A stretch of DNA of 64,000 nt. Source: Catellatospora bangladeshensis (GTDB lineage Bacteria; Actinomycetota; Actinomycetes; Mycobacteriales; Micromonosporaceae). The DNA lies in assembly GCF_016862575.1 (NCBI RefSeq), contig NZ_BONF01000017.1, positions 1 through 64,000 of the forward strand. Direction: 5' to 3'. The first letter of the stretch is position 1. Every line of letters begins with the position of its first letter. The translations under genes and the position numbers were made by a program. Positions 49,918 through 57,331 of the stretch are shown in pieces. The notes under the pieces are model-generated. The model searched no databases, had not been told where the DNA came from, and saw only the letters and a list, made by a program, of their open reading frames with translations.

Positions 49918-50148
49918 TGGCCTCGATGGGCTCGGTCGCGGACTGCTTCGACAACGCCCTGGCCGAGACGTTCTTCGCCATGCTCAAGACCGAATTGGTC
50001 TACACGAAGGCCTGGCCCAGCCGCCACGAACTAAAGATGGAGCGTGTTCTCCTACATCGAAGGCTCCTACAACCCCCGCCGGGCGCACAGCCTTCTGGGC
50101 AACCTCAGCCCTGACACCTACGAGGAGATCTACTACGAGTCGTTGGCA
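49918..50148 (+). pseudogene. IS3-family transposase (OrfB) C-terminal relic, frameshifted
   Basis: One frame encodes ASMGSVADCFDNALAETFFA then MLKTELVYTKAWPSRHELKM. After about 50042 another frame carries on: VFSYIEGSYNPRRAHSLLGN then LSPDTYEEIYYESL. Together they match the last 75 residues of IS3-family OrfB, including the final catalytic Glu in ALAETFF and YNPRRxHSxLG. A small insertion at about 50040 breaks the frame, and the N-terminal part of the DDE domain is missing. It is non-functional. Confidence 0.85.
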
Positions 50149-50295
50149 GACCTCGAGTGCCCCGCCGATAGGGGCCACTTCAAGATCCTGCTCGGTGCGT
50201 GTTATGCCTACAAGTCCCGTACCGATGACACGGACGCGTTCCGGCGGTGTGATGTCCCGGCGTGGGCGGTGAAGCTCACCTGCCACGCGGGGACA

Positions 50296-52968
50296 TCACG
50301 TCAGGCGACGTCCCTGGGAGCGCACGCCTGCCGGTTCGGGTACGCCCCCCAGTGCTCGCCGGGCGTAGGCGCGCACGTCGGCGTCGACGTCGCCCAGCGC
50401 CTTCTGCAGCGCTGCGGCGAACACGTCGGTATGCAGCGCCATCGCCTGCACCGCGGCTTTACGGACGTCGGCGTTGCCGTCGACGGCCAGCACGGTCAAC
50501 GCGTCCGGCCCGGCCGGGCCGAGTGCGGCGGCGGCTCCGGCCCGCACCTGCCAGGCGGGGTCGGCTGCCGCCTGCGACGCCAGCGTGGTGAGCGCCGCGT
50601 CCGAGTGGGCCGCCGCCGAGGTGAACGCGGCGGCGCGGACCAGTGGCTCGGTGTCGGTGGCCAGCACGGCGAGCACCTCGGTCCCGCCCACCGTCCGCAG
50701 CCCTTGCGCCACAGCCACGCGCACCTCGCGATCGGGGTCCGACGCGGCGGTGGCCAGACCGGCGGTGTCGTCCAGGCGGACCAGGCCTCGCACGGCCTGG
50801 AGCCGCACCCGCACGTCGTCGTCGGCCAGGTGCGCGACGAATTCGGGGGCGGTGCCGTCCCCGGTGTGCCGGAGCAGGTCGAGGGCGATCGCGCGGACGG
50901 CCGGGTCGGGGCTGCCCAGCGTGGCCCGCAGTGCGAGCCCGGCGGGCAGGACGTCGGCGAGTTCCTGCAGTCCGGCCACGGCCGCGCCGCGCACGCCCGC
51001 GTCGTCGTCCGACAGTGCTCCCACGAGCGTCTCAGGCGTGCCGTCCGGCGCCGCTTCCACGAGGGTGATCAGGGCGGTGCGGCGCACCTCCGGATCGGTG
51101 TCGGTCAGGTAGGGCACGAAGTCGGCCAGCGACGGGTTCTGCTCGGCCAGGCGTACGACCTCCAGCAGTCGGGGTGTGGCCTTGGCGGCGATGCCGCGAG
51201 CAGCCGTCGTGGTGGCCGCGCCGCGCCCGTGGTGCACGGATGCCTGGAGCACCTGGGGTGCCGCGTCGACCGGGGTGAACCCGTCGACGGGGAACAGGTA
51301 CGGGTCGACGGGGCGTTTGACGAACTCCATCTGCCCTTCGGCGTCTTTGCGCAGGTTGAGGTGGTACAGCCACTGCTCGTCGTCGCGGTCGGTGTGGTCG
51401 AGCCGTTCGTGGTAGAGCCCCCACCTGCTCTCGGTGCGCATGAGCGAGGCACGGGCGGCCATCTCGGCGCAGTCGCGGATGAACGAGACCTCGACGCAAC
51501 GCATCAGCTCGTGCGGGGTGCGCGCGCCCATCCGGGTGATGTCGGTGCGGATGCGTTCGAACGCCTCGACGGCGAGGTCGAGCTTCGCGCCGGACTTGGG
51601 CGGGGCGACGTAGTCGTTGACGAAGCGGCGCAGCTTGTACTCGACCTGCTGCTGGGGCAGGCCGTCCGGGTTGGCCAGCGGCCGGTAGATCAGCTCGTGC
51701 GCGGCCTCGACCTGGTCCTGCGGCAGCTCGCCGGGCACGGCGTCGAGCCCGGCGGCGTGGGTTCCGGCGAGGTCGCCGAAGACGAACGCGCCGATCATGT
51801 AGTTGTGCGGCACGCAGGCCAGGTCGCCCGCCGCGTACAGGCCGGGGACGGTGGTTGCGCCGTGCTCGTCGACCCAGACGCCCGAAGCGGAGTGGCCGCC
51901 GCACAGGCCGATCTCGGAGATGTGCATCTCCACGTCGTGGGTGCGGTAGTCGTGGCCGCGTCCGGCGTGGAACGTGCCGCGGGTGGGGCGTTCGGTGGTG
52001 TGCAGGATGCCTTCGAGCTTGGCGATGGTCTCCTCGGGCAGGTGGGACAGCTTCAGGTAGATCGGGGCGCGGTCGGTCGAAAGCTCCCGGGCCACCTCGG
52101 CCATCATCTGCCCGGACCAGTAGTCGGAGTCGACGAAACGCTCGCCCCGGTTGTTGACCTGGTAGCCGCCGAACGGGTTGGCGACGTAGGCGCAGGCGGG
52201 GCCGTTGTAGTCCTTGATCAGCGGGTTGATCTGGAAGCACTCGATGCCGGACAGCTCCGCCCCGGCGTGGTACGCCATCGAGTGGCCGTCGCCGGCGTTG
52301 GTCGGGTTCTCGTAGGTGCCGTACAGGTACCCGCTGGCGGGCAGGCCGAGCCGCCCGCTCGCGCCGGTCGCGAGAATCACGGCCTTGGCCGACACGGTCG
52401 CGAACTCGCCGGTGCGGGTGTGGAACCCGGCCACTCCGGCGGCGCGGCCGTCGGCGGTGAGCACCCGCACCGGCATGAGCCGGTTCTCGATCCGGATGCG
52501 GTCGCGCATGCGGCGTTCGCGCAGCACCCGGTAGAGGACCTTCTTGATGTCGCGGCCCTCGGGCATGGGCAGCACGTAGCTGCCGGAGCGGTGCACCTGC
52601 CGGACGGCGTACTCCCCATAGGCGTCCTTCTCGAACTTGACTCCGTAGCCCTCCAGCCGCCGGACCATGTCGTAGCCGCGGCTGGCCGTCTGGTGGACCG
52701 TCTTCTGGTTGACGATCCCGTCGTTGGCCAGGGTGATCTCGCGTACGTAGTCCTCGGGGGTGGCCTTACCGGGGATGACGGCGTTGTTGACGCCGTCCAT
52801 GCCCATGGCCAGCGCGCCGGAGTGGCGCACGTGCGCTTTCTCCAGCACGATCACCCGCGCGCCGTGCTCGGCGGCGGACAGGGCCGCCATGGTCCCGGCG
52901 GTGCCGCCGCCGACGACGACCACGTCGCAGTCCAGGTGCAGGCGTTCGGTCAGGCTCGCAGGCTGCAC
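50296..52968 (-). CDS. FrdA/AprA-like flavoprotein with C-terminal HEAT repeats
   Basis: The product is 890 residues. The GTG at 52968 follows AGGAGGAG and overlaps the ATPase gene by 19 bases. The FAD-binding fumarate reductase/APS-reductase-like part (about 1-590) starts [20 protein letters not shown] and has [20 protein letters not shown] and [20 protein letters not shown]. From about 600 to 875 come HEAT-type repeats: [57 protein letters not shown] and more. HEAT repeats usually mediate protein contacts. The substrate is unknown; electrons could come from the ferredoxin in the same operon. Active-site residues of fumarate reductase were not confirmed. Confidence 0.88.
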
Positions 52969-53630
52969 AGGATCTCCTCCTTGGTGGCGGCGGACGCGTC
53001 GAGGACGGCTTCGACGCCGCGCGGGGTGAGGACGGCGACGCGGTCGGCGAGGATCAGCGCCTCGTCGACGTCGTGGGTGACGAACACGACCGTGGCGGGG
53101 TTGGCACGGTGCAGGTCGAGCAGCATCTGCTGCATACCGGCGCGAGTCTGCGCGTCCAGCGCCCCGAACGGCTCGTCCATGAGGATCGCCCGGGGCTGCG
53201 CGGCCAGGGTGCGGGCCAGCTGCACCCGCTGGCGCTGGCCGCCGGACAGCTGCGCGGGCAGCCGGGCGGCGTGCTCGCCCAGGCCCACCTCGGCCAGCCA
53301 GCGTTCGCTGTGCCTGCGGCGGTCGGGGACCTTGCGGATGGCCAGGGCCAGCTCGACGTTGCGGCGGGCGGAGCGCCACGGCAGCAGCGCGTCCTCCTGG
53401 AACATCAGGGCCCGCTCGCTGGACGGGCCGCGTACGGGCTGCCCGTCGGCGAGGATGCGGCCGCCGCGCGGTGGCAGCAGCCCGGCCAGGGCGCGCAGCA
53501 GGGTGGACTTGCCGCAGCCGGAGCCGCCGACCACGACGAGGATCTCGCCGCTGCGGACCTCCAGGTCGAGCCCGCCGACGACGGCATCGCCGCCGTAGCC
53601 GAGGGTCACGCCCGACAGTTCGAACCTCAT
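52950..53630 (-). CDS. Nitrate/sulfonate-type ABC transporter ATPase
   Basis: The product is a 226-residue ATPase of the SsuB/TauB type: Walker A GGSGCGKST, Q-loop MFQEDALLPWRS, signature LSGGQRQRVQLAR, Walker B AILMDEPFGALDA and switch VTHDVDEAL. It is slightly shorter than the usual 250. The ATG overlaps the permease stop. Confidence 0.95.
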   Translation of the reverse strand: MRFELSGVTLGYGGDAVVGGLDLEVRSGEILVVVGGSGCGKSTLLRALAGLLPPRGGRILADGQPVRGPSSERALMFQEDALLPWRSARRNVELALAIRKVPDRRRHSERWLAEVGLGEHAARLPAQLSGGQRQRVQLARTLAAQPRAILMDEPFGALDAQTRAGMQQMLLDLHRANPATVVFVTHDVDEALILADRVAVLTPRGVEAVLDASAATKEEILCSLRA

Positions 53631-54472
53631 CGTGTCCGATCCTTCAGGTTGGCGGGCAGCCAGCGGGTCGCCCAGCGGCCGGCGCGTTCGACGGAGGCGG
53701 AGGTGAGCCAGCCCAGCGCGCCGATGGTGAGCATCCCGACGAGCACCCCGGGATAGTCGACGATGGTGTACGCCTTCCAGGTGCGATACCCGACGCCGTA
53801 GTCACCGGAGATCATCTCGGCGGAGATGACGCAGATCCAGGACACTCCGATACCGACGGACAGCCCACTGAACACCCCGGGCAGTGCCCCGGGCAGCACG
53901 ACGCTGGCCAGGGTGCGAATGCGCCCGCCGCCGATGGTCGCGATCGCGTCCTCCCAGACCGTCGGCAGGGCCCGCACGGCGTGGCGGGTGCTTACCAGGA
54001 TCGGGAAGAACGCCGACACGAACGTGATGAACACGATCCCCTGCTCGTTGGTCGGGAACAGCAGGATCGCGACGGGCACCAGCGCGATCGCGGGGATCGG
54101 GCGCACCACCTCGAACAGCGGTTGCAGGACGTCGGCCAGCAGCCGGGAGCGGCCGATGGCGATGCCCAGGCCGATGCCGAGCACGGCGGCGATGCCGAAG
54201 CCGGTGAGGATGCGCACCAGGCTCTGGGCGACGTCCTCGTAGTGGACGGGCTCGCCGAGCTGGCGGACGAGCTCCCGCCACACCTCGACGGGGGTGGGCA
54301 GGCGGTCGAAGCGCACCCACAGCCGCACGTCGCCCGCGGTGACCCACTGCCAGGCCAGCACCGCCGCGGCCAGGGAGGTCAGCCGGACCGCCCAGCGGGC
54401 GCGGTATCCACCGCGCCGCCCGCCGGACGTGGCGGCGGGCGGCGCCTGGGTCTGCTCCAGCAGGGCCGTCAT
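53627..54472 (-). CDS. Nitrate/sulfonate-type ABC transporter permease
   Basis: This 281-residue permease has about six hydrophobic segments and the SsuC/TauC pattern: QPLFEVVRPIPAIALVPVAI, then FFPILVSTRHAVRALPTVWE, the EAA-loop equivalent GGGRIRTLASVVLPGALPGV and WICVISAEMISGDYGVGY. It is coupled by ATGA overlaps to both neighbours. Confidence 0.95.
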   Translation of the reverse strand: MTALLEQTQAPPAATSGGRRGGYRARWAVRLTSLAAAVLAWQWVTAGDVRLWVRFDRLPTPVEVWRELVRQLGEPVHYEDVAQSLVRILTGFGIAAVLGIGLGIAIGRSRLLADVLQPLFEVVRPIPAIALVPVAILLFPTNEQGIVFITFVSAFFPILVSTRHAVRALPTVWEDAIATIGGGRIRTLASVVLPGALPGVFSGLSVGIGVSWICVISAEMISGDYGVGYRTWKAYTIVDYPGVLVGMLTIGALGWLTSASVERAGRWATRWLPANLKDRTR

Positions 54473-55872
54473 GCCTGCTCCAGCGCCTGGGCATAGGTGA
54501 CCAGCCGGGCGCCGGGGTGCGTGGCGGTGTAGGCGTCGGCGGAGGAGCGGGTGACGAACGGCTTGAAGCGCTCGTCGGCGGGCGCGGCCGGGTCCTGCAC
54601 CCACAGGCTCTTGTCGGCGAACCAGCGGGTGCCGGTCAGGGCGTCGGGTACGTAAGCGACCCGGGGCTTGTTCGCGCGTACGGCGCGCAGCAGGCACGTC
54701 GGGGTGGCGGCCGGGACGGTGCGCTCGGCGTCGGCGGGCCAGATCTCCCCGGCCAGCGCGGGGTCGGTGACGGGGCGGCCGCAGACGGCGTCGGTGCCCG
54801 TGATCGCCGCGCGATTGGCGGTCTGGCCAAAGTCGGCGTCGTAGCCCTCGCCGTAGACGGCCTTGAGGTAGCTGTCGTCGACGAACGCGGCCAGGTCGAT
54901 GGACTGCAGCACGCCGATGGACTTCAGGAACGGCACGTCGTGGGCGTGCGCGTCGCGCAGGGCCTGCTTGAGCTGGACGTCGAAGGTGACCTGGCCGCCG
55001 GCGCCGTTGTAGAGGTAGACCACCTCGGGCGGCAGGCCGGTGGCGTCGGCGACGGACTTCGCGGCCGCGAGCGGGTCGTTCCACAGGAACGCCGTGGCGT
55101 CGATCTGCGCCTTGAGGAACGCCTTGACCACGTCGGCGTGGTCCTTGGCGTACTGCTCGCGGACGACGACACCGTGGAAGGTGGGCACGTCCAGCGCCCC
55201 GCCGTCGTAGAGCGGCCGGGCCTCGCCCCGGTGCACCAGCAGGGCGGGCCACGCGACGAACTGGGACAGCGCGGCGACGTTGCCCGACTGCAGGGCGGAC
55301 GCGCCGACCTGGGGCACCTGGTTCTCGACCTTGACCCCGGTGACGCCCTGACGTTCGAGGGCCTGCACGAGCGTGCCGTGCGCGGCCGAGCCGACGCTGG
55401 TGGAGACGGTCTTGTCCTTGAGCCCCTTCAGGTCGGCGATCGTGGCCGTGGGGGTGGTGACGACCATGTTCAGCGCGCCGCGGATGTTGTACCCGGTCGC
55501 CGAGACGAGCTTGGTGCGGGTCTCGGCCTGCTGCTGGCCGCGAGAGCCGTTGATGAGCAGCGGGTAGTCCCCCATGGAGCCGATGTCGATCTTCCCGGCG
55601 ATCATCTGGGCGGTGATCGGCGCGCCGGTGTCGTAGTCCTGCCAGACGACGTGGAACTTCCGGCCGGTGATCTCGCCGAGTCGCTTCTCGAAGAAGCCCT
55701 GGGCCTTGAGCAGGGTGCCCGCGGTGACGGTGTTGATGGTCTTGGACTGGTAGCCGACCACAACCTGCTCGGCGTCGCTGTCGGCGGCGTTGCCGGCGAC
55801 GGTGCATCCGGAGGTGGCCGCCACGGCTGCGGCGAGGGCGAGGATCGCGACGATACGCATCAGGGGTCTCAT
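54469..55872 (-). CDS. ABC substrate-binding lipoprotein with NosL-like C-terminal domain
   Basis: The product is 467 residues, much longer than the usual 320. The ATG at 55872 overlaps the ferredoxin stop; the signal ends in a lipobox (VAATSGC). The binding-protein part (about 30-345) is NMT1/SsuA-like: VVVGYQSKTINTVTAGTLLK, then ITAQMIAGKIDIGSMGDYPL and VPTFHGVVVREQYAKDHADV. The last 110 residues resemble NosL copper-binding accessory proteins: CGRPVTDPALAGEIW, PTCLLRAVR, RVAYVPDALTGTRWFADKSL and the tail FKPFVTRSSADAYTATHPGA followed by RLVTYAQAL. The two Cys lie where NosL has metal ligands. The NosL resemblance is from pattern reading only. Confidence 0.85.
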   Translation of the reverse strand: MRPLMRIVAILALAAAVAATSGCTVAGNAADSDAEQVVVGYQSKTINTVTAGTLLKAQGFFEKRLGEITGRKFHVVWQDYDTGAPITAQMIAGKIDIGSMGDYPLLINGSRGQQQAETRTKLVSATGYNIRGALNMVVTTPTATIADLKGLKDKTVSTSVGSAAHGTLVQALERQGVTGVKVENQVPQVGASALQSGNVAALSQFVAWPALLVHRGEARPLYDGGALDVPTFHGVVVREQYAKDHADVVKAFLKAQIDATAFLWNDPLAAAKSVADATGLPPEVVYLYNGAGGQVTFDVQLKQALRDAHAHDVPFLKSIGVLQSIDLAAFVDDSYLKAVYGEGYDADFGQTANRAAITGTDAVCGRPVTDPALAGEIWPADAERTVPAATPTCLLRAVRANKPRVAYVPDALTGTRWFADKSLWVQDPAAPADERFKPFVTRSSADAYTATHPGARLVTYAQALEQA

Positions 55873-56096
55873 CTCAGCAAGTAGGGCATGTTGACGGTGA
55901 CGGCCCCGGTGGGGCAGCGGGCCGCGCACGGGCCGCAGTACCAGCACTCGTCGACGTGCATGTACGCCTTGCCGCTGGCCGGGTCGATGGCCAGCGAGTC
56001 CAGTGGGCAGACGTCGACACAGAGGGTGCAGCCGTCGATGCAGAGGTCCTGGTCGACGATGACCGGGAGATCGACGCGCTGGTGGGCCTGGGCCAT
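55869..56096 (-). CDS. 2[4Fe-4S] ferredoxin
   Basis: The product is 75 residues; the ATG at 56096 follows AGGAG at 7 bases. Cluster motifs are CIDGCTLCVDVCP, with one residue more than usual between the first two Cys, and CWYCGPCAARCP. The extra-residue motif recalls AprB-type ferredoxins that partner APS-reductase flavoproteins. It is two bases downstream of the GntR stop and overlaps the binding-protein gene. It likely carries electrons to or from the operon's flavoprotein. Confidence 0.93.
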   Translation of the reverse strand: MAQAHQRVDLPVIVDQDLCIDGCTLCVDVCPLDSLAIDPASGKAYMHVDECWYCGPCAARCPTGAVTVNMPYLLR

Positions 56097-56098
56097 GG

Positions 56099-56824
56099 TC
56101 AGCTCCTGCACAGCTGGGCGCGCATGGCGAGACGGTCGCCACGGAAGCGGATGGATTCGAGGTCGACGGGTGTGCCGTCGGCGAGGTGGGTGAGGCGTTC
56201 GAGCATCAGCAGCGCGGCGTTGAGCTCCGTGCCGAGCAGGCCCGCGCTGTGCGCGTCGGCGTTGACCGCTTCAAGGGTGAGGTCGGCGGTGCCGAGCGGC
56301 TGGCCGGTGATCGCTTCGAGCAGGACGAAAATGTCGCGGTGGGCGAGGTCCTCGTCGAGCAGGGGCTCCCCGACGACGCGGGGCAGGTAGGTCAGATCGA
56401 GCGACAGCGGCACGCCGTTGAGGCTGCGGATGCGTTCGATGTAGACGACGCGGTCGGTGGTGCACAGACGGCGGGCGACCCAGGTGGGCGGGTCGATGAG
56501 CTCGGCGGCGCGGACCTCGTTGGTGACGGCGCCGTGCTCGTGCAGGGTCTCGTTGAGGCCCATGAGGCGGTGCAGGCCGTGGGGGTACTTCTCGCCGCAG
56601 GTGGTGGTGCCCAGGCCCGGGGTGCGGTCGACGAGTCCCTCGTCGCGCAGCAGCGACAGGGCCTCGCGCACGGTGTTGCGGGACACGGCGAACTCGGCGC
56701 CGAGGTCGTCCTCGCCCGGCAGGGCGCCGTGGGCGAAGTCGCCGGCGACGATCTGGTGGCGCAGCACGTCGGCTACCTGGCGGGCGCGGTCGGTCCGGCG
56801 GCGGCGCGTGACATCGACTGTCAT
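56099..56824 (-). CDS. GntR-family regulator with UTRA domain (HutC-type)
   Basis: The product is 241 residues. The winged helix (about 10-75) shows QVADVLRHQIVAGDFAHGAL and LGAEFAVSRNTVREALSLLR. The UTRA ligand domain (about 90-235) shows VVYIERIRSLNGVPLSLDLT and the end VDLESIRFRGDRLAMRAQL. As the first gene of the six-gene operon it probably autoregulates it; an inverted repeat lies just upstream. Confidence 0.93.
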   Translation of the reverse strand: MTVDVTRRRRTDRARQVADVLRHQIVAGDFAHGALPGEDDLGAEFAVSRNTVREALSLLRDEGLVDRTPGLGTTTCGEKYPHGLHRLMGLNETLHEHGAVTNEVRAAELIDPPTWVARRLCTTDRVVYIERIRSLNGVPLSLDLTYLPRVVGEPLLDEDLAHRDIFVLLEAITGQPLGTADLTLEAVNADAHSAGLLGTELNAALLMLERLTHLADGTPVDLESIRFRGDRLAMRAQLCRS

Positions 56825-56852: not shown

Positions 56853-56869
56853 CCTACTAAACCGATAGG
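56853..56869. promoter_or_regulatory. Candidate GntR operator
   Basis: CCTACTAAACCGATAGG has CCTA/TAGG arms. It sits about 30 bases upstream of the gntR start, in an AT-rich patch that probably also contains the promoter. Confidence 0.45.
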
Positions 56870-57331
56870 ATTAGCGGAATACCACCGGAACTACGCCACC
56901 TGACGACTTCTCCGCACCCACTCCGAGCTGCCCGGACAATGCTTCAAGACCGCAGTTGCGCCACCTTCGGCACCGGCCTCCGGACAGTGAAACGGCCCCT
57001 ACTCCGCCGCCACGCGCAGACGTAGTGGGCCGCGATCGATCCGGGAAGGCCTACATGCTGGACGCCGGACCGGCTCCGAGCGCCGCGACCCGCGCTGCCT
57101 AGAAGGGCTGGTCGGCACCGAACGGCACGACGGCCTGCGGGCGGCGAAACCTGTGCCGGTGGTGCCGTGGTGGACCACGGCGGCGCAACGGTCCGGTGCC
57201 ATCGCCGGTTCAGTGTTCGCGTTGGGTGGCGTTCACTCACGCCCCTCGGCCGATCGGGCAAGGCCCCCGCCGCGCGGATGCCGCATACGGTTAAGCCTGC
57301 GGTCGCCGGGGCGAGTAGAGGAGTGCAAGCC
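56870..57331. other. Intergenic region, nothing recognised
   Basis: This gap of about 460 bases separates divergent genes. Short open frames on both strands show no family resemblance or start signals. I found no strong hairpin. Confidence 0.4.

Follow-up and report, generated by a model that had tools for sequence, protein, structure and literature searches.

Reductases of adenosine 5'-phosphosulfate (APS) and 3'-phosphoadenosine 5'-phosphosulfate (PAPS) combine an alpha subunit carrying flavin adenine dinucleotide (FAD) with a beta subunit that is a two-cluster ferredoxin, and to our knowledge direct reduction to sulfite by such chemistry is known only for activated sulfate. The atsRBC genes of pseudomonads are said to encode an ATP-binding cassette (ABC) transporter for sulfate esters. 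In the accessible part of a study on PAPS reductase, the proposed mechanism is an attack of the flavin N5 on sulfur, and Trp42 of the beta subunit is named in electron transfer (PMC10322725). Sulfate esters are one of the two major organic sulfur forms in soils, and the asfRABC cluster of P. putida S-313 unites a reductase, a ferredoxin, a binding protein and an ABC transporter in sulfur scavenging (PMC4267179, as far as its available text goes). Here we report on a six-gene operon in a 64,000-nucleotide stretch of the actinobacterium Catellatospora bangladeshensis (contig NZ_BONF01000017.1, positions 1 to 64,000; hereafter the window), which encodes a GntR-type regulator, a ferredoxin with two [4Fe-4S] clusters, a substrate-binding protein, a permease, an ATPase and a flavoprotein with a tail of HEAT repeats.

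This locus resembles each of the described systems in part. The function that we propose below, uptake of sulfate esters by an ABC transporter, is the one ascribed to atsRBC, and the likeness goes by that reported function only. With the APS reductase AprBA and the PAPS reductase of M. thermolithotrophicus (MtPAPSR), the operon shares the FAD subunit, the two-cluster ferredoxin and some residue columns, but other columns are changed, the ferredoxin is short, a HEAT partner is added and an importer is linked. The combination of flavoprotein, ferredoxin, binding protein and ABC transporter recalls Asf; however, the window has a GntR/UTRA regulator whereas asfRABC has a LysR one, and for Asf an oxygenation of the C-S bond is described (PMC4267179, same portion of text).

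The observation that guides our reading is that the transporter genes of this family also occur with a sulfatase in place of the redox genes, a swap that points to a sulfate ester as the imported compound. We tentatively propose that the locus is a sulfur-scavenging operon, in which a sulfate-ester importer would supply an AprBA-like enzyme that cleaves the ester reductively to sulfite; we infer the substrate class, the direction of electron flow and the chemistry.

Sister operons with a sulfatase

Seven relatives of the binding protein were found without a linked intact flavoprotein, four on plasmids and three in genomes; six of these were inspected, CP026330 being left out. Four of the six carry genes for a sulfatase, an enzyme of the formylglycine-generating (FGE) type and a SulP-type protein, so that a sulfatase is linked to the same transporter family in related operons, as would be expected of a sulfate-ester importer. 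These are L153 (Gordonia amicalis), L154 (Paraburkholderia) and two from the taxonomic order of the window's species (L168 and L169). All four have the GntR/UTRA regulator, binding protein, permease and ATPase in common with the window, and hold the sulfatase, FGE and SulP-type genes where the window has flavoprotein, ferredoxin and HEAT repeats. The SulP match in L153 extends over no more than 227 residues, and the annotation of that locus does not name it. Compared with the first of the sulfatases, the other three are 85, 86 and 71% identical, and a CTPTR motif is common to all. Judged by eye they lack a signal peptide and look like cytoplasmic enzymes of the formylglycine type. Conversely, the stretches around 95 flavoprotein loci contained no FGE and no SulP match, and a single weak sulfatase match of 25% identity (L060).

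In a tree of the binding proteins, the sulfatase label requires two changes on two branches: the Paraburkholderia protein pairs with a flavoprotein-linked one from Variovorax (support 99/97), and the three actinobacterial sulfatase-linked proteins group together (100/100). The window's GntR protein is 45-47% identical to the regulators of the three actinobacterial sulfatase operons and 35% identical to the adjacent one of Paraburkholderia. About 1 kb from the GntR gene that belongs to the Paraburkholderia operon, on the other strand, lies a second GntR gene (L154:5255-6049), and its product shares 68% identity with the GntR protein of the Cupriavidus flavoprotein operon. A gyrB-like gene was observed in or beside two sister operons (L168:5394-7316, from Pfam; L153:2594-4531, from the annotation), and possibly confers self-resistance to a sulfated gyrase inhibitor.

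By analogy with APS reductase, which releases sulfite, the unit of flavoprotein, ferredoxin and HEAT repeats would take the place of the sulfatase.

Kinship of the redox proteins

The flavoprotein is an already named NCBIfam equivalog and not a new protein. It reaches 1472.5 bits against NF010374 (PRK13800; cut-off 1196) over residues 3-873, HEAT repeats included, and its core reaches 878.8 bits against NF006131 (PRK08275; cut-off 587). Both families are named "fumarate reductase/succinate dehydrogenase flavoprotein subunit", without a tested function given there; the names rest on similarity, and nothing in our analysis points to succinate or fumarate. The closest solved chain is the alpha subunit of MtPAPSR (8a8o; 185.7 bits in phmmer), followed by AprA (108) and SdhA (87). 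The initial annotation had likened the pair to AprA and AprB. On the matches to solved chains, the likeness to an APS-reductase-type redox pair holds, but the flavoprotein is not AprA by score (135.6 bits versus a cut-off of 641.75 for TIGR02061 and 266.7 versus 557 for PRK06854), and the ferredoxin likewise falls below the cut-off of the AprB model (34.9 versus 135.65). Polyferredoxins rank first among the PDB matches of the ferredoxin, and AprB and PAPSR-beta chains are listed below these.

Residue columns were read from an alignment of 95 flavoproteins with A. fulgidus AprA (AfAprA), in which we take Asn74, Trp234, Arg265 and His398 to be ligand-binding or active-site residues. The Asn74 column (Asn61 in the window protein) holds Asn in all 95. 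His359 of a GGH motif is equally invariant and aligns with the GGH of MtPAPSR; the corresponding AprA stretch lies outside the alignment, and we assume that this His is equivalent to His398. The family has conserved blocks of its own, including VPHNYM. An AlphaFold2 model of the flavoprotein was poor in the catalytic core (mean predicted local distance difference test score, pLDDT, 65.9; predicted template modelling score 0.46), and its HEAT helices (residues 599-874) were mostly well modelled. The window's ferredoxin has eight Cys residues, and a CWxC motif occurs in 93 of 93 relatives; its Trp presumably corresponds to the beta-subunit Trp42 of PAPS reductase.

Fourteen loci from proteobacteria and cyanobacteria were fetched, of which 13 are annotated and one (L091) is not. 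In all 14, the stretch with the flavoprotein gene also encodes a ferredoxin and, as a protein of its own, the HEAT repeats. The actinobacterial tail thus looks like a fusion, and this linkage supports a physical partnership of flavoprotein and HEAT repeats. Six of the 13 annotated loci contain a DUF971 gene, and the three from cyanobacteria contain a gene of the Mrp type; DUF971 proteins have an iron-sulfur role, and such neighbours fit an iron-sulfur enzyme.

Substrate and chemistry

Our proposal can be set out as a sequence of steps. The lipoprotein would bind, through its SsuA-like domain, an oxyanion of organic sulfur that is most likely a sulfate ester, for import by the permease and ATPase. 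Inside the cell, the AprA-like flavoprotein, held by the HEAT repeats and supplied with electrons by the AprB-like ferredoxin, would cleave the ester reductively: N5 of the reduced FAD would attack the sulfur, an alcohol or phenol would leave, and sulfite would be released for assimilation, with no need to activate sulfate by ATP. The GntR protein may sense the imported compound or its product. The enzyme would then be a reductive sulfatase, which splits organic sulfate esters into sulfite and an alcohol in a two-electron reaction that depends on flavin and ferredoxin. This more specific claim is plausible but doubtful. It would apply to actinobacteria, proteobacteria and cyanobacteria alike, make the enzyme interchangeable with hydrolytic formylglycine sulfatases, and save the ATP spent on sulfate activation. 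Functions for the NosL-like domain and the HEAT repeats are likewise inferred.

Neighbouring genes in other phyla fit a sulfur compound. Sulfur-named neighbours occur in 6 of the 13 annotated non-actinobacterial loci (L092, L101, L103, L105, L106 and L107), a count that leaves out the thiamine protein ThiS of L098. Control stretches were taken from six of the 13 records, one per record at arbitrarily chosen positions; in these six records, sulfur-named genes lay at the operon in five and in none of the controls. TauE/SafE or YeiH/sulfate exporters are annotated near the flavoprotein in 3 of the 13 loci, and a TSUP transporter in a fourth. Sulfite export near the flavoprotein would fit a sulfite product, and the SulP-type genes of all four sulfatase loci would fit sulfate. 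The initial annotation had suggested uptake and reduction of a small, possibly metal- or sulfur-linked compound; its sulfur side agrees with these neighbours, and we saw no sign that a metal is involved. As separate observations, a LysR protein and an NMT1-type binding domain are fused in a cyanobacterial regulator near the flavoprotein (L103:5301-7337), and a LysR protein of similar length is encoded at L105:5574-7574.

Several results weigh against a sulfate ester or against reductive cleavage. Each sulfatase-linked binding protein shares only 41-52% identity with its nearest query, and the compound that these importers carry may therefore differ. The two other inspected loci do not show the swap: L170 has neither enzyme module in the 14 kb read, with a TauE gene nearby, and L171 consists of GntR, a mere fragment of the flavoprotein gene and a binding-protein gene ending at an insertion sequence. 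At 1e-10, the TauE protein of L170 matches nothing in the 95 flavoprotein loci, so that the annotated exporters are rare and belong to other types. A strictly sulfur-named neighbour is missing from seven of the 13 annotated loci, L098 having only ThiS and L104 a TSUP transporter, and in actinobacteria the operon has no further sulfur gene as a recurrent neighbour, as far as crude calling of open reading frames goes. In all 95 flavoproteins the Arg265 column of AfAprA is Leu and the Trp234 column is Tyr, so binding of an APS-type sulfo group must be built differently. Finally, the nearest solved folds of the modelled binding protein are SsuA and TauA, which bind sulfonates and taurine.

This last result bears out the sulfonate-type importer of the initial annotation and favours the main rival, in which the same importer and reductase logic would act on the C-S bond of a sulfonate, with sulfite formed by reductive or other desulfonation. 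TauD and a second sulfonate ABC transporter near one relative, and flavin mononucleotide-dependent monooxygenases near two others, also speak for it. By score, the binding protein does not reach the SsuA_fam model (117.5 versus a cut-off of 163.5), and the top NCBIfam match of the ATPase is a taurine ATPase, below its cut-off. A sulfonate is nevertheless unlikely, as the sister operons carry a sulfatase, an enzyme that acts on esters, and flavin-dependent reductive C-S cleavage of plain sulfonates would be chemically harder.

In a further alternative, which we consider rather improbable, flavoprotein and ferredoxin would feed electrons to a separate oxygenase that desulfonates aromatic sulfonates. 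The gene content of asfRABC described above is in its favour, but the sequences of the probable Asf proteins of C. metallidurans CH34 and the window differ. The probable AsfA is 30% identical to the window's flavoprotein at 54 bits in BLAST, compared with 185.7 bits in phmmer for PAPS reductase (scores not strictly comparable), and the probable AsfB has CQTC in place of the CWxC of the window's family. On these sequences we reject an identity of the operon with Asf. Moreover, the actinobacterial loci show no recurrent oxygenase gene, subject to the same crude calling. The CH34 gene is probably asfA, judged by its ferredoxin partner, nearby NMT1-ABC genes and the mention of AsfA/AsfB on that C. 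metallidurans replicon (PMC2864759, in the part available). A protein of the fatty-acid-desaturase type encoded directly before this gene pair (L120:7984-9015) is a candidate aryl-desulfonating oxygenase. Two further systems were compared. P. phymatum has a sulfonate ABC operon that depends on NifA (PMC8305402, accessible portion); this is a different system, since its plasmid has only weak and partial flavoprotein matches with at best 25% identity. A study of Gordonia under sulfur limitation names an induced sulfonate ABC gene, and its available text establishes no link to the window's operon (PMC7661421).

A substrate without sulfur, such as a nitrate-like, pyrimidine-like or metal-bound compound that is imported and reduced, appears improbable. 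The fold of the binding protein also occurs in proteins that bind pyrimidines, bicarbonate and nitrate, one relative has thiamine genes nearby, and the C-terminal extension of the binding protein recalls the copper protein NosL; on the other side stand the sulfatase replacement with SulP, the sulfite exporters and the sulfur-named neighbours described above.

The NosL-like extension had been noted in the initial annotation together with its two Cys residues, and both claims needed qualification. Pfam NosL did not match the window's binding protein, either whole or over its last 107 residues, but it matched 14 of 33 aligned relatives at E <=10 (best 1.3e-6), and over six plasmid records the model fell on the binding protein in two (28.4 bits, with a cut-off of 24, and 20.9). 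When the C-terminal 125 residues of 32 proteins were compared with three NosL proteins by profile-profile alignment (hhalign), the probability was 95.6% (E 1.2e-8). Homology to NosL, the copper chaperone of nitrous oxide reductase, is thus confirmed at the profile level through relatives and not by the window protein alone; here the domain is fused to a binding protein. It was modelled confidently (pLDDT about 90-98), and the fold matches listed for the binding-protein model include no NosL entry, an uninformative result as one domain fills the list. Two Cys in the last 125 residues are found in 29 of 72 binding proteins, the window's among them, one in a single protein and none in 42, so the pair is no family invariant. 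The four sulfatase-linked binding proteins, which lie outside the 72, also have two tail Cys by eye. No NosL was found among 148 genomes of the class.

An assimilatory APS or PAPS reductase was rejected as very unlikely despite MtPAPSR being the closest solved relative, because the model scores and the Leu and Tyr in the Arg265 and Trp234 columns speak against this identity, an importer would be superfluous for intracellularly made APS, and none of the neighbours annotated at the 13 loci is called an ATP-sulfurylase.

Operon architecture, upstream elements and distribution

The six genes run on the minus strand from 56824 to 50296, and their tight packing, as first annotated, was borne out: a 2-nucleotide gap separates the GntR and ferredoxin genes, followed by overlaps of 4, 4, 4 and 19 nucleotides, the last between the ATPase and flavoprotein genes. 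The features are listed in Table 1.

Table 1. Positions of the operon's genes, protein parts and upstream elements in the window
Feature	Positions	Strand	Basis
Upstream element GGTGGCGTAG, possible activator site	56891..56900	-	Window variant of the 10-mer GGTGGCGCAA
Imperfect inverted repeat CCTAT-N7-GTAGG (compare CCTAC-N7-GTAGG), possible GntR operator	56853..56869	-	By eye in several loci
GntR/UTRA (HutC-type) regulator, first gene	56099..56824	-	Pfam UTRA 8.2e-29, GntR 7e-16
Ferredoxin, 75 residues, two [4Fe-4S] motifs, the second CWYCGPCAARCP; proposed AprB-like electron donor subunit	55869..56096	-	Pfam Fer4_7
Lipoprotein, 467 residues, NMT1/SsuA-type substrate-binding protein with C-terminal extension	54469..55872	-	Pfam NMT1
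NosL-like C-terminal domain of the binding protein, about residues 352-467, two Cys	54469..54819	-	Matches in relatives, hhalign, pLDDT
ABC permease	53627..54472	-	Pfam BPD_transp_1 1.3e-20
ABC ATPase	52950..53630	-	Pfam ABC_tran 7.9e-31
FrdA/AprA-superfamily flavoprotein, 890 residues, GTG start, proposed reductase	50296..52968	-	FAD_binding_2, Succ_DH_flav_C and HEAT; NF010374/PRK13800
HEAT-repeat tail of the flavoprotein, about residues 599-874	50347..51174	-	Pfam HEAT_2 and HEAT

The upstream element before the GntR gene resembles GGTGGCGYAR. The 10-mer of which it is a variant occurs in 32 of 78 upstream regions, which are related and not independent, whereas 20 shuffles gave no more than 4; a loose form of the motif is present in 69 of the 78, a count without a matched control. 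A regulon search with the motif gave 8 sites in 10 genomes, about the control count, and thus no further regulon in these genomes. The inverted repeat is a possible operator of the GntR protein.

Relatives of the flavoprotein were collected by tblastn (E <=1e-3, one genome per species), which gave at least 592 confirmed stretches; the best 80 were taken, all of them named actinobacteria. The order GntR, ferredoxin, binding protein, permease, ATPase and flavoprotein on one strand is kept in 77 of these 80, which argues that the arrangement is not due to chance, and in the remaining three (L050, L064 and L083) contig borders fall inside the operon. Some loci are more loosely spaced: in L025 the GntR and ferredoxin genes lie about 5 kb upstream, and L020 has a 1.5-kb gap before the ATPase gene. 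By eye, and with the same crude calling, the recurrent neighbours in actinobacteria are the operon itself and apparently lineage-specific housekeeping genes.

The distribution is patchy. The flavoprotein exceeds its cut-off in 8 of 296 Actinomycetota genomes, including that of the window, and all eight encode the binding protein too; in the window's family, 2 of 61 genomes have a close flavoprotein relative, the window's own and one with 72% identity. A transposase (integrase core) remnant, judged by eye, lies 3' of the operon on the plus strand (50044-50290), in keeping with a patchy spread. Among plasmid records searched with Cupriavidus queries, the binding protein was found in 44, the flavoprotein in 51 and both in 40, and in all 40 the two lie at most 15 kb apart. 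In the 11 flavoprotein records without a detected binding protein, three have only about half of the flavoprotein. In one genome (G129:C1:763727-764981), a flavoprotein relative is present as three short adjacent pieces with the middle missing and one internal stop, and looks like a decaying gene.

The initial annotation knew of no described pathway with this gene set. A keyword search of the literature likewise found no description of the six-gene system, subscription papers being mostly outside its reach, and Asf, the nearest described system, is distinct; the flavoprotein itself had already been named.

In conclusion, if our proposal is correct, the operon would provide bacteria with a direct route from organic sulfate esters to sulfite. 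It may also give a role to flavoproteins whose relatives, encoded in at least 592 stretches, are now named only "fumarate reductase/succinate dehydrogenase". The swap between redox module and sulfatase makes both the substrate and the product of these enzymes directly testable.

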